A stretch of 64,000 nt of DNA from Streptomyces monomycini (GTDB taxonomy: Bacteria > Actinomycetota > Actinomycetes > Streptomycetales > Streptomycetaceae): positions 1-64,000 of the forward strand of contig NZ_JAFIQY010000040.1 of assembly GCF_022271435.1 (NCBI RefSeq), written 5' to 3'. The position numbers and the translations under genes are program-made. A model generated the notes under the pieces. It worked only from the letters and a program-made list of their open reading frames with translations. It made no database searches and was not told the origin of the DNA. This document shows positions 7,056-46,526 of the stretch, piece after piece (the stretch's first letter is position 1; every line of letters begins with the position of its first letter).

Positions 7056-7194
7056 CGCACTCTCCTGCTGCTCGTGTGGAGGGACAACCGTGACGACCAC
7101 GGGCAAGGAAGACTCCCCGTCCGGCTCGCCCGCCAAAAGCGCCGGTGCGGAAACTCGGTGGCGATGCGTGGGGAACCTGTGGGAGAACTCAGGC

Positions 7195-7641: not shown

Positions 7642-7703
7642 GGCGGGCGGGGGCGGGCGGTGCCCCGTTCCCCGGGTCTCCCGCATGAGGTACGGTGCGT
7701 GCC

Positions 7704-7844
7704 ATGACCACGTACTCGACCTTCCGTGAGGCGGAGCCGCTGCGCAGCGGCCCCCACGGCGAGTGCGCGCCCCGCGGCATGACGTTTCTGCGCCGCCGCG
7801 GCCGGGTGGGTTCACCCCCGGCCGCCGCTTTCCGCTGTCGGTGA
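7704..7844 (+). CDS. Possible Cys-ending leader peptide upstream of the TauD-like gene
   Basis: A 46-codon frame opens at 7704, seven bases after TACGGT (7691-7696), so the message may be leaderless. An internal ATG at 7779 gives a 21-residue peptide starting MTFLRRRGRV and ending AAFRCR. That form resembles the short Streptomyces leader peptides with an RRR block and a terminal Cys that precede sulfur-assimilation genes. The next gene encodes a TauD-like dioxygenase. This may therefore be a cysteine-sensing upstream ORF, but the classical RRHVDL signature is not intact and no attenuator hairpin is obvious, so the call is tentative. Confidence 0.35.
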   Translation: MTTYSTFREAEPLRSGPHGECAPRGMTFLRRRGRVGSPPAAAFRCR

Positions 7845-8034
7845 CATTCCGGGCGTAACGACCCTCCCGACAGCAGCACCCGCGCACCGCGGCAGCTTCG
7901 CACCCGTACGGCAGCGGCGCCTGATTCCGTGATCCCGGTGTTCCTCGGATGCCGGGTACTGGATGCCGGACGCCGGTACGGGCGTCGCGCGCCTCTCTTC
8001 GTACCTTTCGCTCCTCTCCCACCAGGAGGACCCC

Positions 8035-8982: not shown

Positions 8983-9084
8983 CGCGGGAGGGCGGGAGGC
9001 AGGGGGCGGGTGGAGCGGTTGGCGTCCCCTGCCCGTCCTCCCGGGCGCGGAACCCGAACCGCCCGCCCCCAGACCGCCGGAACG

Positions 9085-10149: not shown

Positions 10150-10545
10150 CGAACCCCCACCAATGCTCCCTAGTCGACCCCCGGCCATCTGAGTATGCAC
10201 GCAGACACAGCCTGTCACCACGCCCTTTTGGCCAGAGTTGAAAGGGGTCGCGCCAACACGGCGCGCAGGGAAAGCTGTAACTCAATTCGACGGCAGTGCG
10301 AATGGAACGGATTGCTCGATCCCGTGGGGGGTGACGAGGCAATGACCGACCGCTCAGCATTTGCCGTGGAAGGCCGTCAACCAGGCCGACATGGCTGACG
10401 GCAGCTCCCGAGGGGGGAGTCCGGAGAAAAGCGAGGGCGGCACCTCCGCACAGGTGCCGCCCTCGTCGGGTTCCGGAGCCGGTGTCAGGGTGAGGGTCGG
10501 TACGGTCTGACACCAACTCCGGTTGGCCTACCGGGTGTTACGGGT
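10150..10545. other. Intergenic region between regulator and ppdK
   Basis: These 396 bp hold the divergent promoter side of the regulator and the 3' end of ppdK. Short open frames exist (10195-10398 plus; 10339-10398 with a GAGG site), but none shows a recognisable protein. The only clear element is the terminator hairpin near 10432. Confidence 0.45.
10432..10465 (-). terminator. Terminator hairpin for ppdK
   Basis: The arms CGAGGGCGGCACCT (10432-10445) and its perfect complement (10452-10465) enclose a 6-nt loop, about 80 bp past the ppdK stop. The perfect 14-bp stem is strongly stable. Confidence 0.75.
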
Positions 10546-13284
<2,739 letters not shown>

Positions 13285-13522
13285 GGGACTCTCTCCTCGC
13301 CGCGGGCTGCCCTGACGGCGAGGAACATACCCAGATCGAAGGCGTCTGGGTACGTCCACTCGGTCGACATACGCCCGTAACCCGTCGTCGGCCAGCAGAT
13401 CGAAAGTCGCCGCGGACGGAGGTCAGGCTTCACGTCCTGAAGACATGGTGGCGCAGCGCGAGCATCGGCGCGCCGAACGGTTACGGAATGCGATGTTCAC
13501 TTGAACCTGCGAACACGAGATG

Positions 13523-13541
13523 GGTGGCACCCAGTGCCACC
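13523..13541. promoter_or_regulatory. Palindrome GGTGGCAC-cca-GTGCCACC, candidate operator
   Basis: It is a perfect 8-bp inverted repeat with a 3-bp centre, about 240 bp upstream of the ppdK start. Its symmetry and short spacing look like a dimeric repressor site rather than a terminator, since it is far from both neighbouring gene ends. I do not recognise the regulator. Confidence 0.35.
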
Positions 13542-13669
13542 TATTGGAGAGGTGCACTCCCCCGCGAAACGCTCATCTGAGCGTGACCCCTATCAGAGGT
13601 GGCGAGAATCACGCCGTCGCGCCGGGCCCGGCACCGCCGTGCGGACCCGGAATCGGACCTGCCGAAAGC

Positions 13670-13699
13670 CGGGAGGCCGGGCATGCGCCCGGCCTCCCG
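13670..13699 (-). terminator. Terminator hairpin for dusB
   Basis: A perfect 13-bp stem (CGGGAGGCCGGGC with its complement) around a 4-nt loop sits 16 bp beyond the dusB stop. Confidence 0.8.
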
Positions 13700-13714
13700 C
13701 GTCGCGTTTACTCC

Positions 13715-14842
13715 TCAGCCGCCCGAAGTGTCCAGTTCCGCGTCGGCCGTGACGCCCGTACGGTCGTACGGGTCGTCCAGCCAGCCGTCCGGCAGGACCA
13801 CCCGGTTCCGGCCAGATGTGCGGCCACGGGGTCCGTCGGCGCCCACGGGCCAGGGCTGGTCGAGATCCAGCTCGCTCAGCAGAGCGTCCATTTCGTCCAG
13901 CGACGAGGCGATTGCCAGCTTCTTACGGGACTCCGAGCCGATCGAGAAGCCCTTGGTGTACCAGGCGACGTGCTTGCGGAAGTCGATGACACCGCGCGCC
14001 TCGTCCCCGATCCACTCCCCCAGCAGCGTGGCGTGCCGCAGCATCACGGCCGCGACCTCCTTGAGGGTCGGCTTCGCGTACGTACCAGTGCCCTCGAAGG
14101 CCGCCACCAGGTCGCCGAAGAGCCACGGCCGCCCGAGGCAGCCGCGCCCCACGACCACCCCGTCGCAGCCGGTCTCGCGCACCATCCGCAGCGCGTCGTC
14201 CGCCGACCAGATGTCCCCGTTGCCCAGCACCGGGATCTCCGGCACGGCCTCCTTCAGGCGCGCGATGGCCTCCCAGTCGGCCGTACCGCCGTAGTGCTGG
14301 GCCGCGGTCCGGCCGTGCAGCGCGATGGCCGTGACGCCCTCCTGGACCGCGATCCGGCCGGCGTCGAGGAAGGTGATGTGGTCGTCGTCGATGCCCTTGC
14401 GCATCTTCATGGTGACCGGCAGGTCACCCGCGTTGCCCACCGCCTCGCGCAGGATGGAGCGCAGCAGGTGCCGCTTGTACGGGAGGGCCGAGCCGCCGCC
14501 CTTGCGGGTCACCTTCGGTACCGGGCAGCCGAAGTTCAGGTCAATGTGATCGGCCAGGTCCTCCTCGGCGATCATGCGGACGGCCTTGCCGACGGTGTCC
14601 GGGTCGACGCCGTACAGCTGGATGGAGCGCGGCTTCTCCGTCTCGTCGAAGTGGATCAGCTGCATGGTCTTCTCGTTGCGCTCGACCAGCGCCCGCGTCG
14701 TGATCATTTCGCTGACGAACAGGCCCTTGCCGCCCGAGAACTCCCGGCACAGCGTCCGGAAGGGGGCGTTGGTGATCCCGGCCATCGGCGCGAGGACCAC
14801 GGGCGGCTGCACCGCGTGCGGGCCGATCTGCAGCTGAGTCAT
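13715..14842 (-). CDS. dusB: tRNA-dihydrouridine synthase, DusB type
   Basis: This flavoenzyme reduces uridine in tRNA to dihydrouridine using FMN and NADPH. The sequence begins 'MTQLQIGPHAVQPPVVLAPMAGITNAPFR', has 'DLNFGCPVPKVTRKGGGSAL' with the catalytic Cys, 'TMKMRKG', and the FMN-phosphate motif 'GCDGVVVGRGCLGRPW'. It is 375 aa from ATG 14842. A second ATG at 14893 has a better ribosome site (GGGAG) and would add 17 residues; family alignment favours 14842. It is divergent from the MFS gene at 15026. Confidence 0.94.
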   Translation of the reverse strand: MTQLQIGPHAVQPPVVLAPMAGITNAPFRTLCREFSGGKGLFVSEMITTRALVERNEKTMQLIHFDETEKPRSIQLYGVDPDTVGKAVRMIAEEDLADHIDLNFGCPVPKVTRKGGGSALPYKRHLLRSILREAVGNAGDLPVTMKMRKGIDDDHITFLDAGRIAVQEGVTAIALHGRTAAQHYGGTADWEAIARLKEAVPEIPVLGNGDIWSADDALRMVRETGCDGVVVGRGCLGRPWLFGDLVAAFEGTGTYAKPTLKEVAAVMLRHATLLGEWIGDEARGVIDFRKHVAWYTKGFSIGSESRKKLAIASSLDEMDALLSELDLDQPWPVGADGPRGRTSGRNRVVLPDGWLDDPYDRTGVTADAELDTSGG

Positions 14843-15025
14843 GAGGAGCGGGTTTCCTTCGGCGGTCGACGGGCGGACTGAGCGACCTCCCATTGTCGCG
14901 CACTCCCGCGGCTGCTCCGCCAGTGCCGTAGGTCCCCTGGTCACAGGCGCCCGCGGCGGCCCGCCGCGCCCTCGCCCGGCGGCCGCTCCGGAGTCGCCCG
15001 CACCCGTTCGTTGTACCGTTCACCT

Positions 15026-16516
15026 ATGCCCGAGCCGAGTCCCGAGCCGAGTCACCGGCGGCGCCTGCTCGTCCTGGCGATCTGCTGCATGAGCCTGCTG
15101 ATCGTCAGCCTCGACAACACCGTCCTGAACGTCGCCCTGCCGTCCATGCAGAAGGATCTGGACACCTCGGTCTCCGGGATGCAGTGGACGATCGACGCCT
15201 ACACCCTGGTCCTCGCCTCGCTGCTGATGCTGGCCGGCTCCACCGCCGACCGGCTCGGCCGGCGCCGGGTCTTCCAGGCGGGCCTGGTGGTCTTCTCGCT
15301 CGGCTCGCTGCTGTGCAGCCTGGCGCCGAACCTGGAGTGCCTGGTCGCGTTCCGCATGGTGCAGGCCGTCGGCGGCTCGATGCTCAACCCCGTCGCCATG
15401 TCGATCATCACCAACACCTTCACCGAGCCGAAGGAGCGGGCCCGCGCGATCGGTGTGTGGGGCGGCGTGGTCGGCATCAGCATGGCGGCCGGGCCGATCG
15501 TCGGCGGGCTGCTGGTGCAGACCGTCGACTGGCGCGCGATCTTCTGGATCAACGTCCCCATCGGGGCGCTCGCCCTGTTCCTGACCCTGCGCTACGTGCC
15601 GGAGTCGCGCGCGCCCAGGCCGCGGCGCATCGACCCCGTCGGCCAGCTGCTGGTGATCGTGCTGCTCGGCGCGCTCACGTACGCGATCATCGAGGCCCCG
15701 GCCGCCGGCTGGGCCTCGCCGCTGATCCTCGGCTTCGCCGCGGCGGCCGTCGCCGCGCTCGCCGGACTGCTGCTGTACGAGCGGCGCCGCACCGAACCAC
15801 TGATCGACCTGCGGTTCTTCCGCAGCGCGCCGTTCAGCGGCGCCACGGTCGTGGCGGTCTGCGCGTTCGCCGCGCTCAGCGGCTTCCTCTTCGTCAACAC
15901 GCTCTACCTCCAGGACGTGCGGGGCCTGTCCGCCCTGGACGCGGGCCTCTACATGCTGCCGATGGCGGGTATGACGCTGGTCTTCGCGCCGCTGTCCGGG
16001 CGGCTGGTCGGCTCGGTGGGGCCGCGGCTGCCGCTGCTGCTGGCCGGGCTGGCGATGGCGGCCAGCGGGGTGCTGTTCGCGGGCTTCGAGGCGGAGGCGA
16101 GCACACCGCTGCTCTTCACCGGGTACGTGCTCTTCGGCATCGGCTTCGGGCTGGTCAACGCGCCCATCACCAATACGGCGGTGTCCGGCATGCCCCGTAC
16201 CCAGGCCGGTGTGGCCGCGGCCATCGCCTCCACCAGCCGGCAGGTGGGCAGCTCGCTGGGGGTCGCGGTGATCGGCGCCGTACTGGCCGGCGGCACCCGT
16301 GTCGCCGCCACCGGCAGCCGGTTCGTCGAGGCGAGCCGTCCCGCCTGGTGGATCATCGCCGGGTGCGGCGCGGCCGTGCTGCTGCTGGGCGCGCTGACCA
16401 CCGGCCGCTGGGCACAGGGCACGGCGCGCCGTGCCGCGGAACGCCTGGAGTCCACGGGGGACCAGGCCCCGCCGCAGGGACCTGGCGGTCAGCCTTCCGC
16501 GCGGATCAGGGCCTGA
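15026..16516 (+). CDS. MFS drug-efflux transporter, DHA2 (14-TM) family
   Basis: The 496-aa membrane protein carries the DHA2 signature 'SLDNTVLNVALPSM' in TM1, motif A 'STADRLGRRRVF', and motif C 'GPIVGGLL'. About 14 hydrophobic segments are present, matching EmrB/QacA-type proton-driven exporters. There is no Shine-Dalgarno sequence; TACCGT ends 6 nt before the ATG, suggesting a leaderless transcript. Its last 28 bp overlap the convergent regulator gene ending at 16489. The substrate is unknown. Confidence 0.9.
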   Translation: MPEPSPEPSHRRRLLVLAICCMSLLIVSLDNTVLNVALPSMQKDLDTSVSGMQWTIDAYTLVLASLLMLAGSTADRLGRRRVFQAGLVVFSLGSLLCSLAPNLECLVAFRMVQAVGGSMLNPVAMSIITNTFTEPKERARAIGVWGGVVGISMAAGPIVGGLLVQTVDWRAIFWINVPIGALALFLTLRYVPESRAPRPRRIDPVGQLLVIVLLGALTYAIIEAPAAGWASPLILGFAAAAVAALAGLLLYERRRTEPLIDLRFFRSAPFSGATVVAVCAFAALSGFLFVNTLYLQDVRGLSALDAGLYMLPMAGMTLVFAPLSGRLVGSVGPRLPLLLAGLAMAASGVLFAGFEAEASTPLLFTGYVLFGIGFGLVNAPITNTAVSGMPRTQAGVAAAIASTSRQVGSSLGVAVIGAVLAGGTRVAATGSRFVEASRPAWWIIAGCGAAVLLLGALTTGRWAQGTARRAAERLESTGDQAPPQGPGGQPSARIRA

Positions 16517-17403
16517 AGCTGTTCCAGCTTCTCGCGCGTCGCCTCGTCGTCGGGCGTGTAGGTGATCATCTTGGGCCCTGGGCCGGGACCGGTGTACAGG
16601 TTGGTGGAGGACAGCCGCAGCAGGCCGACGTCCCGCTGGCGGAAGAGCTTTGACTGGCTCACCGGCCGTACGACCTCCTGGCGCGCCCAGATCTCGCGGA
16701 ACTCCGGCGAGGCCGCCTCCAGCCGCGCCACCAGCGCCTTCCAGGGCGGCTCGGCGACATGGCCCGCCATCGAGGCGCGGAACTTGGCGGCCATCACGCG
16801 CAGCGTCTTGTCCAGGTCCACCAGGCTCGCCCGCCATTCCGCGTGGGTGAACGCCAGCCACAGGCAGTTGCGGTCCTCTTCGGGCAGCGCGTCCACGTCG
16901 CACAGCAGCCGCCCGTAGGTGCTGTTGTAGGCGAGGAGGTCGAACCGGCTGTTCTGGACGGCGGCGGGGAACGGCGCGAGCCGGTCGAGCATCTGCCGCA
17001 TCGCCGGTGACACGCCCGTGCACTCGCTGCCCCGCACCGGATCGGTCACACCGGCCAGCGCGAAGAGGTGGCCGCGCTCGGCCCGGTCCATCTGGAGCGC
17101 GCGGGCCACGGCGTCCAGCACCTGGGGCGAGACCTTGATGTCGCGCGCCTGCTCCAGCCACGTGTACCAGGTGACACCGACGGCGGAGAGGTGGGCGACC
17201 TCCTCACGGCGCAGGCCCGGTGTACGGCGGCGGAGGCCGCGCGGCAGACCGACCTGCTCCGGGGTGATCCGCTCGCGGCGGCTGCGCAGGAAGGCGGCCA
17301 GCTCGCCGCGCCTGACGTCGCCGTCGGTCCGCGCGGGCCCTGTTCTCTCCGGCGTTCTCTCCGGCGATGTCTCCGGCGATGTCTCCGGCATGGTGGCGGT
17401 CAT
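16489..17403 (-). CDS. MmyB-type XRE-family transcriptional regulator
   Basis: The 304-aa protein has an N-terminal helix-turn-helix around residues 30-95 ('LAAFLRSRRERITPEQVGLP' and 'RTPGLRREEVAHLSAVGVTWYTWLEQ') and the C-terminal MmyB-like PAS-fold ligand domain, standard for this large Streptomyces family. Residues 6-21 are four tetrapeptide repeats of the PE(T/R)(S/T) type, encoded by four 12-bp tandem repeats (17342-17389). It is divergent from an MFS gene whose promoter contains a palindrome, so it probably controls that gene and itself. The ribosome site is weak. Confidence 0.88.
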   Translation of the reverse strand: MTATMPETSPETSPERTPERTGPARTDGDVRRGELAAFLRSRRERITPEQVGLPRGLRRRTPGLRREEVAHLSAVGVTWYTWLEQARDIKVSPQVLDAVARALQMDRAERGHLFALAGVTDPVRGSECTGVSPAMRQMLDRLAPFPAAVQNSRFDLLAYNSTYGRLLCDVDALPEEDRNCLWLAFTHAEWRASLVDLDKTLRVMAAKFRASMAGHVAEPPWKALVARLEAASPEFREIWARQEVVRPVSQSKLFRQRDVGLLRLSSTNLYTGPGPGPKMITYTPDDEATREKLEQLQALIRAEG

Positions 17404-17447
17404 GATCCCAGGATGCCGGAGTGCTCAGCGGGTTGCCAGGTAGCACC

Positions 17448-17475
17448 GGTACCAGGATGAAGAGACTCTGGTACC
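17448..17475. promoter_or_regulatory. Inverted repeat GGTACCAG-N12-CTGGTACC in the XRE/MFS divergent promoter
   Basis: The perfect 8-bp arms (17448-17455 and 17468-17475) lie between the divergent XRE gene (start 17403) and the MFS gene (start 17505). A related half-site (CAGGTAGCACC) sits just to the left at 17438-17447. The position fits an operator for the adjacent XRE regulator (inference). Confidence 0.55.
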
Positions 17476-17504
17476 CCCCTGGGCGGCGGACGATCGTCGT
17501 CCTC

Positions 17505-18971
17505 GTGAGCGATACCGACGTACGCGACGTACGAACCGTCCCGACGCGGGCTCCCGAGCCCGCCCCCATCAGCACCACTCGTTCCACCCACCCCGCACTG
17601 ACCACCCTCGGCCTGGTCACCGTGCTCCTCGGCGCCGCCCTGCCGATGATCGACTTCTTCATCGTCAACGTCGCGCTGCCGACCATCGACCGCGACCTGC
17701 GCGCGGGCCCGGCCCTGCTGGAGATGGTCGTCGCGGGCTACGGCGTCGCGTACGCGGTCCTGCTCGTCGTCGGCGGACGGCTCGGCGACATGGTCGGCCG
17801 GCGCCGGCTCTACCTGTGGGGGCTGGCGGCCTTCGGGCTCACCTCGCTCGCCTGCGGCCTGGCGCCGGACGCCTGGACGCTGGTGGCGGCGCGCGTCGCC
17901 CAGGGCGCGGCGGCCGCGCTGCTGCTGCCGCAGGTGCTGGCCACCATCCAGGCGACGACGAGCGGGGCGCGCCGGGCCAAGGCGGTCAGCCTGTACGGCG
18001 GTACGGCCGGCGTCGCCAGCGCCGTCGGGCAGGTGCTCGGCGGGCTGCTGGTCGCCGCCGACCTCGCCGGGACCGGCTGGCGCGCGGTGTTCCTGGTCAA
18101 CGTGCCGATCGCCGCGGTGGCGCTGCTGCTCGCGCTGCGCACCGTACCCGAGACCCGCTCGCCGCACCCCAGCCGGGTCGACGTGCCCGGCACCGTGCTG
18201 CTGGCCGTCGCGATGGTCAGCCTGCTGCTGCCGCTGACCGAGGGCCGCGCGGCGGGCTGGCCGGTGTGGTCCTGGCTGCTGCCGGTCGTCTTCCCGTTCG
18301 CCGCCGCGGCGTTCGTCGTCGTGGAGCGGCGCGCCGAACGGGCCGGACGCACCCCGCTCGTCCCGCCGTCCCTGCTGCGCCTGCGCTCCGTACGCAGCGG
18401 CCTGAGCGTGATCCTGCCGTTCTCGGTCGGCTTCGGCGGGTTCATGTTCGTGCTGGCCGTCGCCCTCCAGGACGGTCTGCGGTACGGGCCGCTGGCCGCC
18501 GGGCTCGCGCTCGCCCCGCTGTGCGTGACGTTCTTCTTCGCGTCACTGGCCGGACCGCGGCTGGTGGCCCGCTTCGGGCGGCGGGTGGTGCTGGCCGGGT
18601 CGCTGATCCAGGGCGCCGGGCTGCTCGCGCTGGCGCTCGTCTTCCGTACGCAGTGGCCCGGCGTGTCCGCGCCCGCCCTGGCGGCGGCCATGGCGGTGCT
18701 CGGCGTGGGCCAGGGTCTCGTCCTGCCGGTCCTGCTGCGCATCGTCCTCAGCGAACTGCCCGCGGCGCAGGCGGGAGTGGGCAGCGGCGCGATGGTCACC
18801 ACCCAGCAGGCCGGTCTGGCCCTGGGCGTCGCGACGCTCGGCACGCTCTTCCTCACGCTGCTGCCGTCACTGGGCGTGCAGAACGCGCTGATCGTCGCAC
18901 TCCTCGCGCAGGTGGCGACGGTGGGGCTCAATGTGGCGCTCACGTTCCGGTTGCCGCGCGTGGTGCGGTAG
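17505..18971 (+). CDS. MFS drug-efflux transporter, DHA2 family
   Basis: It is a 488-aa, 14-TM exporter: 'PMIDFFIVNVALPTID' in TM1, 'GGRLGDMVGRRRLY' motif A, and 'GSGAMVTTQQAGLALGVA' near the C-terminus. The GTG at 17505 is preferred because the ATG at 17457 lies inside the promoter palindrome. It is transcribed divergently from the MmyB-type regulator, a common pairing in Streptomyces where the regulator controls the pump. Substrate unknown. Confidence 0.88.
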   Translation: MSDTDVRDVRTVPTRAPEPAPISTTRSTHPALTTLGLVTVLLGAALPMIDFFIVNVALPTIDRDLRAGPALLEMVVAGYGVAYAVLLVVGGRLGDMVGRRRLYLWGLAAFGLTSLACGLAPDAWTLVAARVAQGAAAALLLPQVLATIQATTSGARRAKAVSLYGGTAGVASAVGQVLGGLLVAADLAGTGWRAVFLVNVPIAAVALLLALRTVPETRSPHPSRVDVPGTVLLAVAMVSLLLPLTEGRAAGWPVWSWLLPVVFPFAAAAFVVVERRAERAGRTPLVPPSLLRLRSVRSGLSVILPFSVGFGGFMFVLAVALQDGLRYGPLAAGLALAPLCVTFFFASLAGPRLVARFGRRVVLAGSLIQGAGLLALALVFRTQWPGVSAPALAAAMAVLGVGQGLVLPVLLRIVLSELPAAQAGVGSGAMVTTQQAGLALGVATLGTLFLTLLPSLGVQNALIVALLAQVATVGLNVALTFRLPRVVR

Positions 18972-19005
18972 GGGCGGGGGTGCGGGGCGGGGCGGGGGCG
19001 GCTCC

Positions 19006-19061
19006 GACCGGCCGACCGGCTGACCGGCTGACCGGCCGAACGACTGACCGGCCGACCGGCA
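19006..19061. repeat. Seven 8-bp tandem repeats, GACCGGCY
   Basis: Seven adjacent units of GACCGGCC/GACCGGCT run without gaps; the fifth is degenerate (GAACGACT). They lie after the MFS stop and directly before the palindromic operator at 19067, and are not part of a plausible gene. Confidence 0.75.
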
Positions 19062-19066
19062 CCGAA

Positions 19067-19090
19067 ATGACAGATATTGAAATCTGTCAT
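19067..19090. promoter_or_regulatory. TetR-type operator ATGACAGAT-N6-ATCTGTCAT
   Basis: A perfect 9-bp inverted repeat with a 6-bp AT-rich centre stands out in GC-rich DNA. It lies about 105 bp before the aldo/keto reductase start, with a TetR-family gene immediately downstream of that enzyme. Size and symmetry fit a TetR dimer site, most likely bound by the product of 20317-20901 (inference). Confidence 0.6.
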
Positions 19091-19116
19091 CGCACATGCC
19101 ATGGTTGAGGAGGGCC

Positions 19117-19154
19117 GCCGCCACGTGCCGTGTTCCCCCGCGGCACGTGGCGGC
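19117..19154 (+). terminator. Hairpin in the presumed 5' leader of the aldo/keto reductase gene
   Basis: The arms GCCGCCACGTGCCG (19117-19130) and its perfect complement (19141-19154) flank a 10-nt loop. It lies between the operator and the gene. It could be the terminator of the MFS gene ending at 18971, or an attenuator if transcription starts at the operator. Confidence 0.55.
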
Positions 19155-19195
19155 CCGCCACCCACCTCCCCTCCCCCGTTCCTGAGGAGCACCCC

Positions 19196-20203
19196 GTGGA
19201 GACCCGCACCCTCGGCACCACAGGCCCGCAGACTTCGGCCCTCGGCCTCGGCTGCATGGGCATGTCCGCCCTGTACGGCGACCCGGGCGACCGCGGCGAG
19301 TCCGTCGCCACCCTTCACGCGGCCCTCGAAGCCGGCGTCACCCTGCTGGACACCGGCGACTTCTACGGCATGGGCCACAACGAGCTGCTGATCAACGAGG
19401 CGCTGCGCACCGCGCCGGCGGCCCGCCGCGAACAGGCGCTGACCAGCGTCAAGTTCGGCGCGCAGCGCACCGTGGAGGGCGACTTCATCGGCTTCGACGG
19501 CCGGCCCGCCGCGGTGAAGAACTTCGCCGCGTACTCCCTCCAGCGCCTGGGCACCGACCACATCGACATCTACCGGGTGGCCCGCGTCGACCCCGACGTG
19601 CCGATCGAGGAGACGGTCGGCGCCATCGCCGAGCTGGTCGAGGCCGGTCACGTGCGGCACATCGGGCTGTCCGAAGCCGGCGCGGACACCCTGCGCCGGG
19701 CCGCTGCCGTCGCCCCGATCTCCGACCTCCAGATCGAGTACGCGATCATCTCCCGCGGCATCGAGGAGAAGGTCCTGCCCACCGCGCGCGAACTGGGCAT
19801 CGGCATCACCGCGTACGGCGTGCTCTCCCGTGGCCTGCTCAGCGGCCACTTCGCGCGCGACCGCAAGCTGTCCGCCGACGACTACCGCGCGGCGAGCCCG
19901 CGTTTCCAGGGCGAGAACCTGCACCGCAACCTCGACCTGACCGACGCACTGCGCGTGATCGCCGAACAGAAGGGCGTCACGGTCGCGCAGATCGCCATCG
20001 CCTGGGTCCTCGCCCAGGGCGAGGACATCGTGCCGCTGGTGGGCGCCCGTCGCCGGGACCGGCTGACGGAGGCGCTGGGCGCGCTGGACGTCACCCTGGA
20101 CGCCGACGACCTCGCGGCGATCGAGCGCGCCGTCCCGGCGGACGCCGCGGCCGGCGACCGCTACCCCGCACAGCAGATGGCCCTTCTGGACAGCGAGCGC
20201 TGA
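19196..20203 (+). CDS. Aldo/keto reductase, subfamily lacking the canonical catalytic His
   Basis: The 335-aa (alpha/beta)8-barrel oxidoreductase uses NADPH. GTG 19196 has GAGGAG six bases upstream. The catalytic set is D52 and Y57 ('DTGDFYGMG') and K86 ('TSVKFG'). The fourth residue, normally His in 'YxLHRVDP', is Ala129 ('YRVARVDPDVP'). Downstream motifs ('IEETVGAIAELVEAGHVRHIGLSEA', 'LQIEYAI') are typical of the YakC/AKR13-like group. It is probably co-transcribed with the TetR gene 113 bp downstream and controlled from the palindrome at 19067. The substrate is unknown. Confidence 0.88.
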   Translation: METRTLGTTGPQTSALGLGCMGMSALYGDPGDRGESVATLHAALEAGVTLLDTGDFYGMGHNELLINEALRTAPAARREQALTSVKFGAQRTVEGDFIGFDGRPAAVKNFAAYSLQRLGTDHIDIYRVARVDPDVPIEETVGAIAELVEAGHVRHIGLSEAGADTLRRAAAVAPISDLQIEYAIISRGIEEKVLPTARELGIGITAYGVLSRGLLSGHFARDRKLSADDYRAASPRFQGENLHRNLDLTDALRVIAEQKGVTVAQIAIAWVLAQGEDIVPLVGARRRDRLTEALGALDVTLDADDLAAIERAVPADAAAGDRYPAQQMALLDSER

Positions 20204-39166: not shown

Positions 39167-40435
39167 TCAGGGCGCGGCGCCGACCCGCTCCGCCCGCGTC
39201 CGTCCCGGCGTCCGGCGCGCGTCGAGGCGGTCCCACAGGGTCAGCATCGGGGACGCCATCACCGTCGTCACCAGCGCGACCACGACCAGCACCGCGAACA
39301 TCGACGGGGTGACGATGCCGGCCGCCAGACCGATGTTGATCGCGATGAGCTGCATCAGGCCCCGCGCGTTCATCAGCGTGCCGATGCGCAGCGCCACCCC
39401 GGCCTCCTCGCCGGCCAGCCGCGCGGCCAGCCAGCAGGCACCCAGCTTGCCGAGGACGGCCACGGCGACACAGCCCGCGGTGAACAGCAGCAGTCCTGGC
39501 GAGGCCAGCAGCGCGAAGTCGGTGTTCAGGCCGGAGTAGGTGAAGAACAGGGGCAGGAAGACGATCCGGCTGATCGGCGCGATCGTCTCGACGGCCCGGT
39601 CCACCGCTGCGGAGCGCGGGAAGACCACGCCCAGGCTGAACGCGCCGAAGACGGCGTACAGGCCGATGCGGTCGGTGTACCAGGCGGCGATGAAGAGGAC
39701 CACGATGGTGATCAGCAGCAGCTCGTCGGGACTGCGGCGGTTCACCAGGCCCGTGAGCCGGGTCCCGGAGCGGGCGAGCAGGGCCAGTACGACCACCAGG
39801 CCGGCGCTGCCCACGAGGGCGACGACCAGCGGCCCGGTACCGGTGCCGGTCAGGCCCAGCACCCCGGCGAGCAGCACCCACGCCAGCGCGTCGTCCACCG
39901 CCCCGGACGCCAGGGACAGCGAGCCGAAGCGGGTGCCGGTCAGACCCCGCTCGGTGATGATGCGGGCCAGCATGGGGAACGCGGTGATGGCCAGGGTGAC
40001 GCCGACGAAGAGGGCGGAGACGGTGACGGACACGTCGTCCGGGAAGACGTCGACGCGGCCGTGCACGGCGTAGGTCAGCCCCACACCCAGCGCGAGCGGT
40101 ACGAAGATCCCGGCGCCCGAGATCATCGCGGCCGGCCCGGCCACCGCCCGGATGCCGGCCGACCGGAACTCGTACCCGGTCTGGAACATGAAGACGACCA
40201 GGCCGATCTGCCCGGCGACGTACAGCGCGGGCCGCAGCTCCGGCGGGAACAGGGCCGTCTCCAGACCGGGCGCCAGCAGGCCCAGCACGGACGGCCCGAG
40301 CACCACGCCGGCGACCATCTCCCCCACCACGGGCGGCTGGCCCAGCGCTCGCAGGGCGCGCCCCACGAGCCGGCAGACGAGCAGGATGACGACGACGGCC
40401 AGGAAGAAGACCGGCCCTAACTCCGTGACGGTCAT
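39167..40435 (-). CDS. CPA2-family cation:proton antiporter
   Basis: The 422-aa membrane protein has about 12-13 hydrophobic segments and the Na+/H+ exchanger pattern 'GQPPVVGEMVAGVVLGPSVLG' region near residue 32 and 'ASGAVDDALAWVLLA' with the ion-binding Asp-Asp near residue 183. It belongs to the KefB/CvrA-like group. ATG 40435 has GAAGGA 12 bases upstream. It is the last gene of the minus-strand set beginning at 44685 and may be part of that operon (103-bp gap). Confidence 0.9.
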   Translation of the reverse strand: MTVTELGPVFFLAVVVILLVCRLVGRALRALGQPPVVGEMVAGVVLGPSVLGLLAPGLETALFPPELRPALYVAGQIGLVVFMFQTGYEFRSAGIRAVAGPAAMISGAGIFVPLALGVGLTYAVHGRVDVFPDDVSVTVSALFVGVTLAITAFPMLARIITERGLTGTRFGSLSLASGAVDDALAWVLLAGVLGLTGTGTGPLVVALVGSAGLVVVLALLARSGTRLTGLVNRRSPDELLLITIVVLFIAAWYTDRIGLYAVFGAFSLGVVFPRSAAVDRAVETIAPISRIVFLPLFFTYSGLNTDFALLASPGLLLFTAGCVAVAVLGKLGACWLAARLAGEEAGVALRIGTLMNARGLMQLIAINIGLAAGIVTPSMFAVLVVVALVTTVMASPMLTLWDRLDARRTPGRTRAERVGAAP

Positions 40436-40538
40436 GGCGGAGGGTCCTTCGGCTCATGGGGCTGATGTGGGGGCGAGGCGTACGGGCCGGGGGCGCGGAT
40501 CAGACATACGGACCGGGCGTGTGGTTCAGGCGTACGGC

Positions 40539-41981
40539 TCAGGCGTGCGGGTACGGGCAGCGCGCCGGTCCGCCGGTGCCGGCCGGCAGCGGGGCGCCCT
40601 GGGTGTCGTGGGCGGCGAAGTACCGCTCGGCCGGGCGCAGCCGGCGGGCGTCCAGCACCATCCACGTACCGAGGACGAGCTGGACGCAGCTGCGCCACAC
40701 GTCCTCCCACCGGTCGCGCACCCGCAGGAAGACGCGGGCGGCGAGCAACCGGTGCGGCGGCAGCGGACGGCCGCGCCGGACCAGCAGGCAAGGGGCGCGG
40801 TGCGGGATGGAGCGGGTGTGCGCGACGTCGGAGTGGAGGGTGAAGCGGCTCAGCACCTCGCGGGTCGCGGCGCGCATGACCAGCGGGGCCAGCCGCCAGG
40901 CGGGGCAGGGCCGGTTGGCGGCGACGCCGAACGGGATGTGGTGCTGGTTCTTGGCGACGAGGTGGTCCCAGCGGCCGGGATCGAAGACGTCGGGGTCGGT
41001 GTAGCCGGTGGCGTGGTAGTCGGGGTAGTTGAAGCACAGGACGGAGCCGGCGGGGAGGACGGCGTCCGGGCCGAGCGGGATGTCGTCCGTGCTGATGCGG
41101 TGGGCGACGCCGAAGAGCGGGTAGAGGCGCAGCGTCTCGTCGAGGACGTTGGCGAAGTAGCGGTCGTCGTCGGGCGCGGCGGCCAGCTTCCGCTGTACGT
41201 CCGGGTGTTGGCCGAGGACGAGCAACAGGTGGGCCATGGCCTCGGACAGCTGCACGACGGCCGTGTTGAAGAAGGTGCCCTGGAGGTAGTGGGCCTGCTC
41301 GTCGGGTGAGAGGGAGCCCGGCAGGTGGCGCGGCGGTACGTGCCCGGCGGCGATGCGCTGCCGCAGGTGGCGGGTGAGGCGGGTGCGGCGGGCCAGGTGG
41401 CGTGGCCGGGTGCACTTCAGGGAGTTCACCACGTCCTCGGCGTTGTCGACGATCAGGCGCCGGACGTCGGCCGGGCACGGTTCGCGGAAGACGAGGCCGT
41501 AGAAGAATTCCGCCCAGACCGGCATCATCAGGTCGCGCAGCCGTACGAACGTGGCGCGGCCGACGCCCCGTTCGTCGAGCACGGCGGCGGTACGGCGGGC
41601 CGCCGCCGCGGACAGGTCCTGGCTGGGGCCGGCGAGCACGGTGAGGGTGGTGCGGGCGACGTCGTCGTAGCGCGGGCCGTCCTCCAGGTGTTCCTGGTGC
41701 ACTTCGGGGCCGGGCGCGAGCCAGTACCAGAAGAGGTCCGAGAGGGCGGCGCCGCGGCTGCGGCCGTTGGCGGCCGGGTGGGAGTAGACCTCCTGGAAGC
41801 GTTCGGCGGGGACGGCGGCGTTCGGGAAGGCGATGCCCTCGTCGCCGTTGATCCGGGCGAAGAGCGCGACGCGGGCGGCGACGACCGTGCGCGGCAGCCA
41901 GTACGGGACGGAGAGGGCGGCGGCCGTGGCGGCGAGCAGCCGGAGGGTGCGGGGGCGGGCGGAGAGCCGGGGACGGTTCAT
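40539..41981 (-). CDS. Cytochrome P450
   Basis: The 480-aa haem monooxygenase has the ExxR motif E282-T-L-R285, 'DVFDPGRWD', and the Cys-ligand loop 'IPFGVAANRPCPAW' with Cys359. That loop departs from the usual FGxGxHxCxG: the Gly before and after the Cys are replaced. A hydrophobic stretch near residues 14-34 ('LLAATAAALSVPYWL') may act as a membrane anchor, unusual for bacterial P450s. About 110 residues follow the Cys. ATG 41981 overlaps the stop of the FMN oxidase gene (ATGA) with GGGGAGG upstream. Confidence 0.88.
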   Translation of the reverse strand: MNRPRLSARPRTLRLLAATAAALSVPYWLPRTVVAARVALFARINGDEGIAFPNAAVPAERFQEVYSHPAANGRSRGAALSDLFWYWLAPGPEVHQEHLEDGPRYDDVARTTLTVLAGPSQDLSAAAARRTAAVLDERGVGRATFVRLRDLMMPVWAEFFYGLVFREPCPADVRRLIVDNAEDVVNSLKCTRPRHLARRTRLTRHLRQRIAAGHVPPRHLPGSLSPDEQAHYLQGTFFNTAVVQLSEAMAHLLLVLGQHPDVQRKLAAAPDDDRYFANVLDETLRLYPLFGVAHRISTDDIPLGPDAVLPAGSVLCFNYPDYHATGYTDPDVFDPGRWDHLVAKNQHHIPFGVAANRPCPAWRLAPLVMRAATREVLSRFTLHSDVAHTRSIPHRAPCLLVRRGRPLPPHRLLAARVFLRVRDRWEDVWRSCVQLVLGTWMVLDARRLRPAERYFAAHDTQGAPLPAGTGGPARCPYPHA

Positions 41982-43069
41982 CGGGCCTCCCCGCTCCGGA
42001 CGCTCCCCCGCGCGACGACGAGGTCCGGTCCGAGGTCGGCCGGGCTGCCGCCGCCGCACAGCGCCAGCACGTGGTCGAACTCCGCGCGCAGCAGCTCCAG
42101 TACGTGCCGGACGCCCTTCTCGCCGTCCGCGGCCAGGCCCCACAGCACCGGGCGGCCGACGCCGACGGCCGACGCGCCCAGCGCGAGGGCCACGGCGGCG
42201 TCGGAGCCCCGGCGGACACCGCCGTCCAGCAGGACCGGCACCCGGCCCGCGACGGCCTCGGCCACGGCGGGCAGCGCCTCGACGCTCGCCGGGGCGGCGT
42301 CGAGCTGCCGGCCGCCGTGGTTGGAGACCAGCAGCCCGTCCACGCCCTCGGCGACGGCGATCCGCGCGTCCCCGGGGTGCAGGACGCCCTTGAGCAGCAC
42401 CGGCAGCCGGGTCTGTGCCCGCAGCCTGCGCAGGTCGTCCCAGGAGAGCCCCGGGGACATGGCGATGTCGCGGGGGCGGTCGTCGAGGGCGCCGGGCAGG
42501 CCGCGCATGTTCTCGGCGGTCAGGCCGTCGGGCAGGTCGTCGAAGCCGTGCCGGGCGTCCCGTTCGCGGCGGCCGAAGACGGGTGAGTCGACCGTGACGA
42601 CCAGTGCCGTGCAGCCGGCCCGCTCCGCCCTGCGCACCAGGGCGAGGGTGACCTCCGGTTCGGGCTGGAGGTAGAGCTGGAACCAGACGGCCGCGTCGGC
42701 CTGTACGGCGCGGGCGGCGGCGGTGACCTCGGCCACCGGCACGGTCGCGGCCATGCCGGTGACCAGGACCGTGCCGGCTGCCGCCGTCGCGCGGGCGGTG
42801 GCCAGCTCGCCCTCGGGGTGCGCGAGGCGGTGGAAGGCGGTGGGCGAGACCAGGACGGGCATCGCCAGGCGGTCGCCGCACAGCGTCACGGACAGGTCGC
42901 GGGCGGCCGCCCCGCGCAGGACGCGCGGCAGCAGGGCGAGCCTGCGGAACGCCGCCTCGTTCTCGTGGAGCGCCGTCTCGCCCCCGGCGCCCCCTGCGAA
43001 GAAGTCGTACACCCGCGGGTCCAGCCGCTCCCGGGCCCGCTCGCGCAGGTCGGCGAGGGTGGGGATCAC
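41978..43069 (-). CDS. FMN-dependent alpha-hydroxy acid oxidase
   Basis: The 363-aa enzyme of the lactate/glycolate/mandelate oxidase family shows 'RVYDFFAGGAGGE' near residue 20, 'LLKGVLHPGDA' with the conserved Lys, 'VSNHGGRQLD' with the base His251, and the phosphate loop 'VLLDGGVRRGSDAAVALALGASAVGVGRP' (last two short pieces are the core). GTG 43069 overlaps the previous stop (GTGA) and its own stop overlaps the P450 start, so three genes are tightly coupled. A hydroxy-acid intermediate in a small-molecule pathway is implied. Confidence 0.93.
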   Translation of the reverse strand: MIPTLADLRERARERLDPRVYDFFAGGAGGETALHENEAAFRRLALLPRVLRGAAARDLSVTLCGDRLAMPVLVSPTAFHRLAHPEGELATARATAAAGTVLVTGMAATVPVAEVTAAARAVQADAAVWFQLYLQPEPEVTLALVRRAERAGCTALVVTVDSPVFGRRERDARHGFDDLPDGLTAENMRGLPGALDDRPRDIAMSPGLSWDDLRRLRAQTRLPVLLKGVLHPGDARIAVAEGVDGLLVSNHGGRQLDAAPASVEALPAVAEAVAGRVPVLLDGGVRRGSDAAVALALGASAVGVGRPVLWGLAADGEKGVRHVLELLRAEFDHVLALCGGGSPADLGPDLVVARGSVRSGEAR

Positions 43070-44685
43070 GGCCGGGCCGCCGGTTCCGGGCCGGTGAGCC
43101 GGGGGCGCAGGAAGGACCGCAGGGGTGCGCGGTGGACCTCCTCGCTGTCCCACTCGTTCTCCAGGTTCTCGGTGAGGTGGTGCTCGGCGGTCGCCTTGCC
43201 GGGCGCGGCGCCGTCGAAGACGCGGACCACCGGGTGCAGATAGCGGCCGTCCAGGCCGGTGGTGTCCTGCTGGGAGACCCGGCCGGCGGAGATGTCGAAC
43301 GGGTTGACCTTGTCGTGGCCCTCGCCGTATTCGAGGGTGACGGTGCAGTAGGAGCCGACCTCGCCGAAGCCGCCGTCGGCGACGGCGGTGTGCAGGTGGT
43401 CGACCGGCACTTCCTCGCAGTAGCGGACCGTGCCGTCCCGGTCGACGAGCACCGCGTCGCCGAGGAAACCGAAGACCTGGAAGAGCGCCGAGCTGCGGTT
43501 GACGCGGGCGATCACGGCGTCGGTGACCGCCTCGGCGGTGGCGGGCAGGGCGCGGGCGGGCCAGGGGCGGCCGTGGTGGCGGGCTTCGAGGATGCGGTGC
43601 AGGGCCCGTACGCCGTACCGGAACCCGTGGATGAAACCACTGGTGGATTTCTTGAAATCGCGTACCTGGGTGATGGTGCCGGCGAAGTACAGTCCGGGGA
43701 CGTTCGGCGATTCCCAAGCGTCGGTCTGGGCCGGGAAACGGTCGTTGACGGTGAGTTCGGGGCGGCACTCCGGTGCGAATACCGACGGGTCGAAGCGGAA
43801 TCCGGTGGCGAGGATGACCCGGTCGTAAGTGATGTCCTTGACCACCTCGTTGACCCGGGAAAAGGAAACGGAGACCACGTATGAGCCGTCCGGCTGCTGC
43901 CGGATACGTTCGATGTTTCCGTCCAGCACCGCGTTCTGCAATTTCAGCTGATAGGTGTCGAGGAAGTTGTTGTTGACGGCCCGCAGGTGTCCGACGAAAT
44001 GGGTCTGCCAGGCGAGCTTCAGCGAGCCGGGTCCGGCGACGTGGATGACGGCGGCGGTCTCGATGAGGTTGTCGGCGGTCTCGAACGCGGAGTTGGCACG
44101 GCCGATGATCAGCACGCGCTGCCCGGTGAAGCCGGCCGGGTCGACGGAGACCTCGTCGTAGCGCTCGACCGTCTCGACGCCCTCGATGGCGGGGATGTAC
44201 GGGCGGGTGACGCCGGTCGCCATGATCAGCCGCCGTGCGCGGTAGGCGGTGCCGTCGGCGGCGCGGGCGAGGAAGTCGCCGGGTCCGTCCGGCCCGCCGT
44301 ACGGGCGGGATATCTCGGTGATACGGGTGTGGTGGCGGATGCGCAGGCGGTGGGTGGCGGCGAAGTCGGCGAGGTAGCCGACCATCTCGTCGGCATCCGG
44401 GAAATAGCGTGGGGTACGGGCGGTGAACAGCGGGGTGTGCTCGTCGGAGAGCAGCGAGTTCCAGTCGGTGCGCATGTTCAGCTCGGGGTCGTCCCAGCCG
44501 GTGTGCACCTTGTTGATCGAGATGAGGGTGCGATGGCGGGGGAAGCGGGTGAAGAACTCACCGGGAGCCGCGCCCGACTCCACGATGAGATGACTGCGTC
44601 CGGTCTGTTGCAGGAAATATCCGGCTTGTAATCCCGCGGGGCCGGCGCCGACCACCAGATAGTCCATCGTTTCGTCGTGGCTCAC
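43066..44685 (-). CDS. FAD-dependent oxidoreductase, FOXRED2/flavin-monooxygenase-like
   Basis: The 539-aa protein has an FAD-binding GxGxxG 'YLVVGAGPAGLQAGYFLQQ', a second Rossmann motif 'VLIIGRANSAFETADNL', and 'ILATGFRFD' typical of class B monooxygenases. 'FPRHRTLISINKVHTGWDDPE' is split here but its core (RHRTLISINK) is characteristic of FOXRED2-like proteins. The C-terminal ~140 residues are not part of the classical FMO. GTG 44685 has AGGAG 7 bases upstream. It is the first gene of the minus-strand cluster, divergent from the ligase gene. Confidence 0.88.
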   Translation of the reverse strand: MSHDETMDYLVVGAGPAGLQAGYFLQQTGRSHLIVESGAAPGEFFTRFPRHRTLISINKVHTGWDDPELNMRTDWNSLLSDEHTPLFTARTPRYFPDADEMVGYLADFAATHRLRIRHHTRITEISRPYGGPDGPGDFLARAADGTAYRARRLIMATGVTRPYIPAIEGVETVERYDEVSVDPAGFTGQRVLIIGRANSAFETADNLIETAAVIHVAGPGSLKLAWQTHFVGHLRAVNNNFLDTYQLKLQNAVLDGNIERIRQQPDGSYVVSVSFSRVNEVVKDITYDRVILATGFRFDPSVFAPECRPELTVNDRFPAQTDAWESPNVPGLYFAGTITQVRDFKKSTSGFIHGFRYGVRALHRILEARHHGRPWPARALPATAEAVTDAVIARVNRSSALFQVFGFLGDAVLVDRDGTVRYCEEVPVDHLHTAVADGGFGEVGSYCTVTLEYGEGHDKVNPFDISAGRVSQQDTTGLDGRYLHPVVRVFDGAAPGKATAEHHLTENLENEWDSEEVHRAPLRSFLRPRLTGPEPAARP

Positions 44686-44975
44686 GCAATTCTCCTGTCA
44701 CCTGCGGGGGGTATGGAGATGGAGCGGAATCCGACAGTACTTGAGCATTAAAGAACGACACCAGGGCGCAAATAAGTGATCTGCGTCACACTCAATCCAA
44801 GGTTTACGAGTACGCTGCACAAGCCAGTGTCACAAGGTCCGGGACTTTTACCTGGAACGCCCTTCTGTCGCGTCCCGGCGGGTCGCCGCATTACTCTCCC
44901 GTACTCCCGGCCCCGCTCGCCCCGCCGGTCCCGTGACGCATTTCAGCCGTTCACACCCACCGGAGCGGACACGAA
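44686..44975. promoter_or_regulatory. Divergent promoter region of the oxidative cluster
   Basis: These 290 bp separate the flavin-monooxygenase gene from the ligase gene and contain a less GC-rich zone around 44740-44830 (for example 'attaaagaacgac' and 'aagtgatctgcgtcaca'), the likely place of both promoters. No clear operator palindrome is seen, and no regulator is encoded beside it. Confidence 0.45.
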
Positions 44976-46526
44976 ATGAGCCAGCTCACCGCAAGCCCTT
45001 TCCCGCAAGCCCTCGTCGACGCGTTCCACCGGCAGCCGGACGTACCGGCGTTTGAACATCGGGGGCGCGCCGTTCCGCGCCGCGCGGTCCTGGACCTGAC
45101 CGGCCGTTGTGTGCGCGGGCTGCGCGCGGCGGGCGTCGGCCCGGGGTCGTCCGTCGCGGTGGCCGCCGGCGCCACCCCCGAGGCGTTCGCCCTGCACCTC
45201 GCGGTGCATCTGCTGGGCGCCCGGCTGACCGGCCTCCGTCCCGGCCTGCCGCCGGGCCACCTCGCCCGCGTCCTGGCCGACGGCATCGACGTCCTCGTGC
45301 ACGACGAGCCGTCGGCCACTTCCGAACTCCTCGCGGCGGGCGCCCCCGACACCACCCGGCTCGGCCTGGAGAAAGACCTGCTGAACACGGCGGAACCGGC
45401 CTCCCCCGACGACCTCGTGGCCCGCGGCCGCCCGGACGACCTCGCCCTGATCACCCTGACCAGCGGCAGCACCGGACAGCCCAAGGAGTGCGCGCACACC
45501 TACCGCAGCCTGACCGCGAGCTGGTCGTGGCAGCCCGCCCGCTGGTCCGCGCGGACCAGCGCCCTCGCGGCGGCCTACGCGCGCTTCCTGCTCTTCGGCA
45601 CCCTCACCAGCGCGGTGATCTTCGAGCACCTGGGGCTGTGCCTGCTGGGCGGCGGCACCGCCGTCATCGCGGACCCGCCGCTGTCCTTCCCGGAGGTCTT
45701 CGCACGGCACCGCATCACCGCCTGCCTGCTGACCGTCCCCCGGTTGCACCACATCCTCAACACCCTGCGCACCGACCCCGCCAACACCGTCGATCTCACG
45801 AGCCTCCGAGCTCTGCTCGTGGCCGGATCTCCCCTCTCGCCCCACCGCCTCGCGGAGGCGGCCGAACGGCTCGGCCCGGTCGTGCACCAGGGGTACGGGC
45901 AGACCGAGACCGGCATGCTGACCCTGCTCACCCCCGACGACCTGGCCCGCCGGCCGGACACGGCGTACGGCTCGGTGGGGCGCCCCCTGGACGGGGTGGA
46001 CATCGGCGTGCGGGACCCGGCCGACGGGCGGCCGCTCCCCGAGGGCGCCACCGGTGAGATCTGGGTCCGTACGGCCGGAGCGCTGGCCGGCTACCGCCGG
46101 GACGAGGAGGAGACCCGCGCCGTACTGCGGGACGGCTGGGTCCGCACCCGCGACCTCGGCCGCCTCGACGAGCACGGCTTCCTGCGGCTCACCGGGCGCA
46201 CCCGTGACGTCATCATCGTCAACGCCGTGCTGCATTACGCGGGCGCCGTCGAACAGGCCCTCGCCGGGCACCCGGACGTCGACCAGGCGTACGTCGTGGG
46301 CGCGCCCGACGAGCGGACCGGCGAGGCCGCCCACGCGTTCGTCGTCCCGGCGGCGGACCGGCGGCCCGACCTCACGGCACTGCGCGATCACGTCGCGGCC
46401 GTGCTGGGCCCGGCGAGCGTGCCCGCCACGATCACCGTCATGCGGGAGGTGCCGGTGGCGGCGAGCGGCAAGCCGGACAAGAAGGCGCTGTTGGGGCGGG
46501 TGCGGGCGGGCCGGGCGGCGGAGTGA
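44976..46526 (+). CDS. Adenylate-forming acyl/aryl ligase (ANL family)
   Basis: The 516-aa class I adenylating enzyme has A3 'LTSGSTGQPKE', A5 'YGQTETG', A7/A8 'RTRDLGRLDEHGFLRLTGRTRD', and the A10 region 'VAASGKPDKKAL' with the catalytic Lys. It activates a carboxylate with ATP, perhaps to a CoA thioester or an amide. No carrier-protein gene lies nearby. ATG 44976 has GGAG 11 bases upstream. Divergent placement with the P450/FMN/FAD set suggests a shared pathway. Confidence 0.9.
   Translation: MSQLTASPFPQALVDAFHRQPDVPAFEHRGRAVPRRAVLDLTGRCVRGLRAAGVGPGSSVAVAAGATPEAFALHLAVHLLGARLTGLRPGLPPGHLARVLADGIDVLVHDEPSATSELLAAGAPDTTRLGLEKDLLNTAEPASPDDLVARGRPDDLALITLTSGSTGQPKECAHTYRSLTASWSWQPARWSARTSALAAAYARFLLFGTLTSAVIFEHLGLCLLGGGTAVIADPPLSFPEVFARHRITACLLTVPRLHHILNTLRTDPANTVDLTSLRALLVAGSPLSPHRLAEAAERLGPVVHQGYGQTETGMLTLLTPDDLARRPDTAYGSVGRPLDGVDIGVRDPADGRPLPEGATGEIWVRTAGALAGYRRDEEETRAVLRDGWVRTRDLGRLDEHGFLRLTGRTRDVIIVNAVLHYAGAVEQALAGHPDVDQAYVVGAPDERTGEAAHAFVVPAADRRPDLTALRDHVAAVLGPASVPATITVMREVPVAASGKPDKKALLGRVRAGRAAE

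Follow-up and report, generated by a model that had tools for sequence, protein, structure and literature searches.

An oxidative gene cassette of Streptomyces monomycini and its relatives, tentatively read as a compact specialised-metabolite pathway

What could bring three different oxidative enzymes, an adenylate-forming ligase and a cation:proton antiporter together on one short stretch of the Streptomyces monomycini genome? The question arises at positions 39167 to 46526 of the first 64,000 nucleotides of contig NZ_JAFIQY010000040.1 (assembly GCF_022271435.1), a stretch called the window hereafter, where a first, sequence-only reading had proposed a gene set for a small acid-derived metabolite. 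We find that this cassette is a real, conserved and widespread unit, not a product of chance, and that its core consists of a flavin adenine dinucleotide (FAD) protein, a flavin mononucleotide (FMN) oxidase, a cytochrome P450 and a transporter. Tentatively, and short of calling it probable, we favour its interpretation as a compact specialised-metabolite pathway without polyketide synthase (PKS) or nonribosomal peptide synthetase (NRPS), acquired by horizontal transfer in the S. rimosus group and leading to a product derived from an aromatic acid. As far as our searches show, the cassette is undescribed: no account of it appeared among the papers listed by full-text searches of open-licence PMC, a coverage that leaves outside the subscription journals, where a description may exist. 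It is a good lead to a class of small metabolites and, because the cassette itself includes neither PKS nor NRPS genes, one that mining rules easily miss. Its parts are the following.

39167-40435, minus strand: cation:proton antiporter of the CPA2 type, which fills the transporter slot of the cassette (PF00999, 169 bits; TIGR00932, 120 bits, under the cut-off of 238)
40539-41981, minus strand: divergent P450 (PF00067, 52.9 bits, C-terminal half only)
41978-43069, minus strand: FMN-dependent alpha-hydroxy-acid oxidase, GTG start (PF01070, 401 bits)
43066-44685, minus strand: FAD protein with two dinucleotide domains, of the flavin monooxygenase/YpdA type, with a C-terminal extension and a GTG start (PF13738, 155 bits)
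44686-44975, no strand: shared divergent promoter region of 290 bp, aligned over 34 window-type loci
44976-46526, plus strand: adenylate-forming ligase (PF00501, 199 bits, and also PF13193), with the amide bond synthetase McbA as its best solved match

All five genes are intact open reading frames (ORFs), with Pfam matches above the gathering score. The FAD and FMN genes, and likewise the FMN and P450 genes, overlap by 4 nt, and the antiporter starts 103 nt past the P450 stop. The arrangement first described, with three overlapping genes, the antiporter, the divergent ligase and the shared promoter, was thus borne out at every coordinate, and its statement that no PKS, NRPS or carrier protein is present holds for the five cassette genes, the remainder of the window not having been scanned for such genes.

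Co-inheritance and layouts of the cassette

With the FAD protein as query, a search of genome contigs yielded 187 relatives, and the 80 ranked highest by FAD similarity were kept with their flanks; counts over these best 80 of 187 loci are skewed to window-like loci. The gene counts reported here rest on tblastn; the gene calls of a simple GC3 script had merged or antisense ORFs. Among the 80 named loci, the FAD gene was found in 80, the P450 in 79, the ligase in 77 and the FMN oxidase in 76, the one locus without P450 (L037) lacking it because its contig ends there. These loci span Streptomyces, Actinacidiphila, Lentzea, Saccharothrix, Amycolatopsis, Nocardia, Nonomuraea and others. The closest named ones, from Streptomyces sp. 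CB02923 and S. rimosus, encode cassette proteins 89-95% identical to those of the window (83% for the S. rimosus ligase). A plasmid search with the FAD protein returned a single record, from Nonomuraea gerenzanensis (11.9 Mb), in which the match is unannotated. Actinacidiphila oryziradicis (G065) has two window-type cassettes, L033 and L050.

The same association is seen among whole genomes, in a set of 61 made up of the window's genome and 60 relatives. The P450 was detected at E ≤ 1e-60 in 17 of them, all within the 18 that have the FAD gene (at least 57% identity), and the FMN oxidase (at least 55% identity) in exactly those 17; three more genomes reach E ≤ 1e-80 for the FMN oxidase, with 49-51% identical proteins only. 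In the eighteenth FAD genome (G050) the FAD gene lies at a contig edge, and a nineteenth FAD-like gene, in G006, has 44% identity and stands without the other cassette genes. The overlap of 17 P450 genomes within 18 FAD genomes out of 61 has P = 3.4e-14 if genomes are taken as independent, which they are not. The ligase occurs at E ≤ 1e-80 in 9 of the 17 P450 genomes (in G038 it is distant from the core); two other genomes have the ligase and no P450. Co-conservation, on which the sequence-only reading had made its five-gene proposal depend, therefore applies to part of the set: the FAD, FMN and P450 genes occur together in loci and genomes and are co-inherited, whereas the ligase is not obligatory, being missing from L098, L102 and L104 among the 80 loci and from the further stretches L173-L179. 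An obligate five-gene unit was rejected, the ligase being separable, and because some lineages lack it we take the core to be the FAD, FMN, P450 and transporter genes.

The cassette comes in three layouts (with the ligase, with both lyase and ligase, and as the core alone), which provide a comparison for assigning the role of each enzyme. In the window type (33 named loci and the window), the ligase is divergent from the FAD-FMN-P450-transporter genes; no lyase, regulator or kinase gene was found by the tblastn queries, and the full set of five is present in 27 of the 33 named loci. The lyase-bearing layout (37 of the 80 loci) has an ammonia-lyase of the 4-methylideneimidazole-5-one (MIO) type beside the ligase, FAD, FMN, P450 and transporter genes, together with an OmpR-type regulator and a sensor kinase in 36 of the 37 (the exception, L066, is cut); 35 of these loci also have a second FAD gene. 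Neither ligase nor lyase is present in the third: L104 reads FAD-FMN-P450-transporter-regulator-kinase, L098 and L102 have the same genes with a major facilitator superfamily (MFS) protein as transporter, and six of ten further stretches (L173-L178) share this layout, while L179 has the four core genes without regulators. The seven remaining loci (Nocardia, Nonomuraea type and Labedaea) have the ligase and no lyase. Since the core also exists without the ligase, ligation would not open the pathway but be a step that was added or can be exchanged. In the Actinoallomurus loci L098 and L102, a common ORF (8776-9951 and 7551-8435, respectively) diverges from the FAD gene at the position that the ligase or lyase occupies elsewhere.

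Protein alignments, the window's sequences included, comprised 76 P450, 71 FMN, 77 ligase and 114 FAD proteins, after removal of matches below 250 bits (regulator and kinase excepted) and of frames with stops. In a tree of the 114 FAD proteins made by a quick method, the window type falls on one side of a branch with 98% support in the Shimodaira-Hasegawa-like approximate likelihood ratio test (SH-aLRT), and the second FAD copies of the lyase-bearing layout form another group (100%). The first copies of that layout are split, those of Pseudonocardiaceae standing beside the window type and those of Streptomyces beside the second copies.

The insertion site speaks to the history of the cassette. 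In the window, L029 and L030, it splits era from a cytidine-deaminase-like ORF (named from its translation), and in L145 and L147 the antiporter adjoins era. Of 30 era loci fetched from the 61 genomes searched (the window, L145 and L147 included), 16 have this ORF in the 1.5-kb era flank, in agreement with the early remark that the set parts era from its usual neighbour. Only L029 and L030 of the 80 named loci have era or the deaminase-like ORF near the cassette, and the insertion pattern fits a horizontal gain in the S. rimosus group.

Oxidative enzymes of the core

The FMN protein is a full homologue of the 2-hydroxy-acid oxidases, with both the FMN_dh domain and the His-Gly-Gly-Arg segment. 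The solved structures that it matches best are oxidases of lactate, glycolate and hydroxyacids, with 4-hydroxymandelate oxidase lower, and the segment VSNHGGRQ is kept in at least 90% of the 71 aligned proteins. The FAD protein is less easily placed. A model built from an alignment of 46 of the 114 FAD proteins (predicted template modelling score, pTM, 0.81; mean predicted local distance difference test, pLDDT, 75.5) matches YpdA (7a7b, Z 24.9) and a flavin monooxygenase (4a9w, Z 23.5) over its first 370 residues, the C-terminal part being barely covered by the fold search. Its cysteines, at 307, 423 and 447, form no CxxC among them, which speaks against a dithiol reductase and is no proof of a monooxygenase.

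The P450 is divergent. Fold, ExxR and axial Cys are all present, and Cys359 and ExxR are invariant across the 76 aligned sequences; V243, Q244, N356, R357, C359, P360 and A361 are identical in all 76. The Cys loop, which reads HIPFGVAANRPCPA in the window's enzyme, is longer by one residue than that of CYP3A7 in a HMMER alignment, confirming the atypical Cys loop noted at first sight. In the same alignment S246 pairs with the first Ser after the acid-alcohol pair of CYP3A7, a motif that lies just upstream of that Ser. The acid-alcohol position would then be V243-Q244, so that the I-helix pair is absent and Val-Gln stands in its place. P450s without this pair include the CYP152 peroxygenases and the CYP74-type hydroperoxide enzymes. 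The AlphaFold model (pTM 0.88, from an alignment of 48 of 66 P450s) is closest to 1wiy_A (Z 27.1, root-mean-square deviation 2.9, 324 residues aligned), with the next matches at 25.8 and below; the CYP152 peroxygenases, at Z 25.2-25.4, are level with CYP17, CYP90B1 and other ordinary P450s.

Judged by these aligned sequences, the family differs without exception from P450s that activate O2. Because the acid-alcohol pair is lacking, the enzyme probably does not carry out an ordinary O2-activating hydroxylation, and may instead use peroxide or catalyse a step of isomerase or dehydratase type; its chemistry may be unusual. A CYP74-like assignment from the segments FFNT and ANRPC was rejected, the register of the resemblance being off by one or two residues. 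About 70 residues follow the heme domain at the C-terminus (window 40539-40757), with conserved helices at about 409-457; they lie beyond the model range 31-407 that most matched structures cover. The possible membrane anchor of the sequence-only reading was not upheld: the best 19-residue Kyte-Doolittle mean is 1.1, and the pLDDT block means there are 53-75.

The pairing of a presumably peroxide-forming oxidase with such a P450 invites a bolder scheme, which we consider unlikely: the FMN oxidase would convert a 2-hydroxy acid to a 2-oxo acid and supply the H2O2, or a hydroperoxide derived from it, to a new peroxide-using or isomerase-type P450, a relay with no dedicated ferredoxin gene whose output could be amide-linked by a synthetase working without coenzyme A (CoA).

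Nitrogen chemistry had also been suggested for the locus. N-N or diazo formation finds no support, PF00206 (a superfamily that we take to include nitrosuccinate lyase) having 0 matches on the window's 83.9-kb contig (C35) and 5 elsewhere in the genome, which agrees with the earlier observation that no nitrosuccinate-lyase gene is here. An N-oxidation that does without nitrosuccinate, in which the FAD protein would N-hydroxylate an amino acid or amine and the P450 would dehydrate the resulting oxime to a nitrile or similar, could draw on the flavin monooxygenase among the top fold matches of the FAD protein and on a P450 whose missing acid-alcohol pair would fit a dehydratase. We hold it to be quite unlikely, however, given that it leaves the FMN 2-hydroxy-acid oxidase without a role, that the YpdA-type reductase is slightly ahead for the FAD model and that the contig lacks the PF00206 gene.

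Ligation, substrate class, regulation and transport

In a PDB search, the ligase has its best solved matches in 6sq8 (227 bits) and 6h1b (224 bits), both of which we take to be the amide bond synthetase McbA, under the listed name "fatty acid CoA ligase". They are followed by 8pyy, 8pyx and 8ppp (188-193 bits), presumably ShABS (PMC10804368), and by FadD8 (162 bits), feruloyl-CoA synthetase (143 bits) and 4-coumarate:CoA ligase (99 bits). Entry 6h1b has a Lys-to-Ala change at the A10 lysine, in agreement with the K483A crystal of McbA described in PMC6282839. The ligase sequence, in which the GKPDK segment is conserved, is closer to an amide bond synthetase than to CoA ligases within the PDB search, and that it forms amides is a good guess. 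The earlier proposal of a small acid-derived metabolite is compatible with the oxidative set and the ligase; it needs correcting in that the ligase gene is dispensable and that its nearest match in the PDB search is an amide bond synthetase.

Could the cassette serve redox or cofactor metabolism, or modify a cell-envelope lipid, with the ligase acting on fatty acids and the antiporter balancing pH or ions? FadD8 is among the better PDB matches, the best general ligase models are those of fatty-acid CoA ligases (PRK06187, 223 bits; cut-off 476), and 14 Lentzea records have the set, a count made without those Lentzea that lack it. Such a role is nevertheless very unlikely: the set is patchy in the window's genus (P450 in 7 of 36 other same-genus genomes), its insertion sites differ, the ligase is dispensable and the transporter can be swapped for one of an unrelated family.

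As to this exchange, our queries found the antiporter in 65 of the 80 loci, an MFS protein in 9, both in 0 and neither in 6. It suggests that the antiporter moves a compound of the pathway and does not merely balance ions. The single MFS protein scanned (L077) matches TIGR00895, the aromatic acid/H+ symport family, at 130 bits.

A link to aromatic acids also comes from the lyase-bearing layout. Its lyase, scanned in one representative (L057), has 2o6y as best match (235 bits), with the His-Leu pair aligned, a pair with a role in ammonia-lyase selectivity; we take 2o6y to be the Rhodobacter tyrosine ammonia-lyase (TAL), listed as a putative histidine ammonia-lyase (HAL). Because 37 related loci carry such a TAL-like lyase and the replacement MFS protein is related to aromatic-acid carriers, the substrate or product would most likely be an aromatic acid of the tyrosine family. 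Lyases of this family being rare in window-type genomes, this link is drawn from the related loci and not from the window, and an aromatic substrate for the window's own cassette is a guess by analogy.

The window's genome does have a TAL-like gene, on another contig (C11), which shares 51-64% identity (about 55% in most cases) with the lyases of the related loci. Around it, at about 80-89 kb of that contig (about 4400-13000 of L111), lie a P450, a ketosynthase-like ORF, an acyl ligase, a DeoR-like regulator and an MFS protein, all named from their translations, and the locus looks like a separate hydroxycinnamate-type pathway. As a gene serving the cassette it was rejected, since these biosynthetic neighbours are unrelated to the cassette genes' own locus and since, of 32 other window-type genomes, just 5 have it at an identity of at least 54%.

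The shared promoter region contains two conserved elements.

44738-44753, minus strand: a further conserved motif, CTTTAA-N3-TCAAGTA, which lies on the FAD side at 21 bp from the CRP-type box
44775-44790, no strand: CRP/GlxR-type palindrome TGTGA-N6-TCACA, with one mismatch in the window

Taken alone, the CRP-type pattern of the window is not significant (1 found, 0.73 expected). Across the 34 window-type promoters, 17 have it exactly and 32 with at most one mismatch, against 0 and 0.165 of 34 in 200 base shuffles; it is missing from L047 and L058. In the 80 loci (1.65 Mb), all 17 exact sites lie in window-type promoters, as do 31 of the 39 sites with at most one mismatch. Outside the 34, the box occurs in L010 and L181, and one-mismatch sites were found in L057, L073 (before the regulator gene) and L107, over positions 2000-20000 of the loci, and also in L174. 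In the 37 lyase loci, the only such site at a cassette promoter is the one before the L073 regulator gene; in that layout a two-component system takes the place of the box. PMC10033298 reports a GTG(N)6GNCAC site. We regard the box as a putative site, which other CRP/FNR proteins could also use.

A CRP-type box in these promoters would tie the cassette to carbon supply, as expected if it imported or handled a plant aromatic acid and oxidised it for catabolism or detoxification, and among the distant relatives of the replacement MFS protein are the aromatic-acid symporters, as a family mostly importers. We find this doubtful all the same, because 37 loci encode a lyase that would produce such an acid, the ligase is nearest an amide synthetase, and there is no ring-cleavage gene among the recurrent genes identified, the recurrent ORF clusters around the loci being only partly annotated and several of them recurring solely in related Lentzea.

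The genes, their co-inheritance, the motifs and the CRP-type box are observed. For the preferred reading, a specialised-metabolite pathway, we infer catalytic steps, a direction of transport, a role for the box and a product class that would combine as follows. The FMN enzyme would oxidise a 2-hydroxy acid to a 2-oxo acid with release of H2O2, the P450 would act in one of the ways proposed above, the ligase would most likely convert an acid to acyl-AMP and join it to an amine, not to CoA, and the transporter would export the product.

Several observations weigh against this reading. The FMN gene is missing from its place between the FAD and P450 genes in four Nonomuraea-type loci (L090, L091, L094 and L107), which retain FAD, P450, ligase and antiporter. 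The exchange of antiporter and MFS protein leaves the direction of transport unfixed, and the L077 protein, which does not reach the TIGR00895 cut-off of 418.55, is a distant relative at best. The best NCBIfam models of the ligase are fatty acyl-CoA ligases, all under their cut-offs, and its counterparts of the McbA amine-tunnel residues E400 and Y402, as given in PMC10804368, are N416 (N in 73 of the 77 ligases) and V418 (mostly N, I or V across the 77), with a tag offset of 3 inferred. As for the aromatic link, the L057 lyase falls under every curated TAL and HAL cut-off, with the HAL models highest; a TAL-family lyase (at least 54% identity) is missing from 27 of the 32 other window-type genomes and present in 5; and the TAL-like gene of C11 has as neighbours a different P450, a ketosynthase-like ORF and a different ligase.

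Comparison with known systems

Cremeomycin-type (cre) diazo clusters are comparable in combining a ligase-like enzyme with a flavin monooxygenase, CreE. The ligase-like enzyme of the cremeomycin cluster is CreM, according to PMC11705231. Unlike the cre clusters, the window's contig has no PF00206 gene. With the bacterial TALs of the bagremycin/ferroverdin and flexirubin hydroxycinnamate pathways, the 37 related loci share a TAL-like MIO lyase; in contrast with those TALs, the scanned lyase stays under the curated cut-offs and the window locus has none.

Among single enzymes, the (S)-2-hydroxy-acid oxidases have the FMN_dh family and the His-Gly-Gly-Arg segment in common with the cassette oxidase, whose gene differs in overlapping a FAD gene on one side and a P450 gene on the other, by 4 nt each. 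The CYP152 peroxygenases, of which P450BSbeta and CYP152K6 rank in the upper part of the fold matches of the P450, have likewise lost the acid-alcohol residues; we take them to have Arg-Pro at that position, where the cassette enzyme has Val-Gln, and the conserved C-terminal helices are a further difference. McbA-type amide bond synthetases, of the ANL superfamily, include the best solved match of the cassette ligase; the McbA system differs in its amine-tunnel residues and in its beta-carboline scaffold genes, which have no counterpart here, and amide formation by the cassette ligase is predicted.

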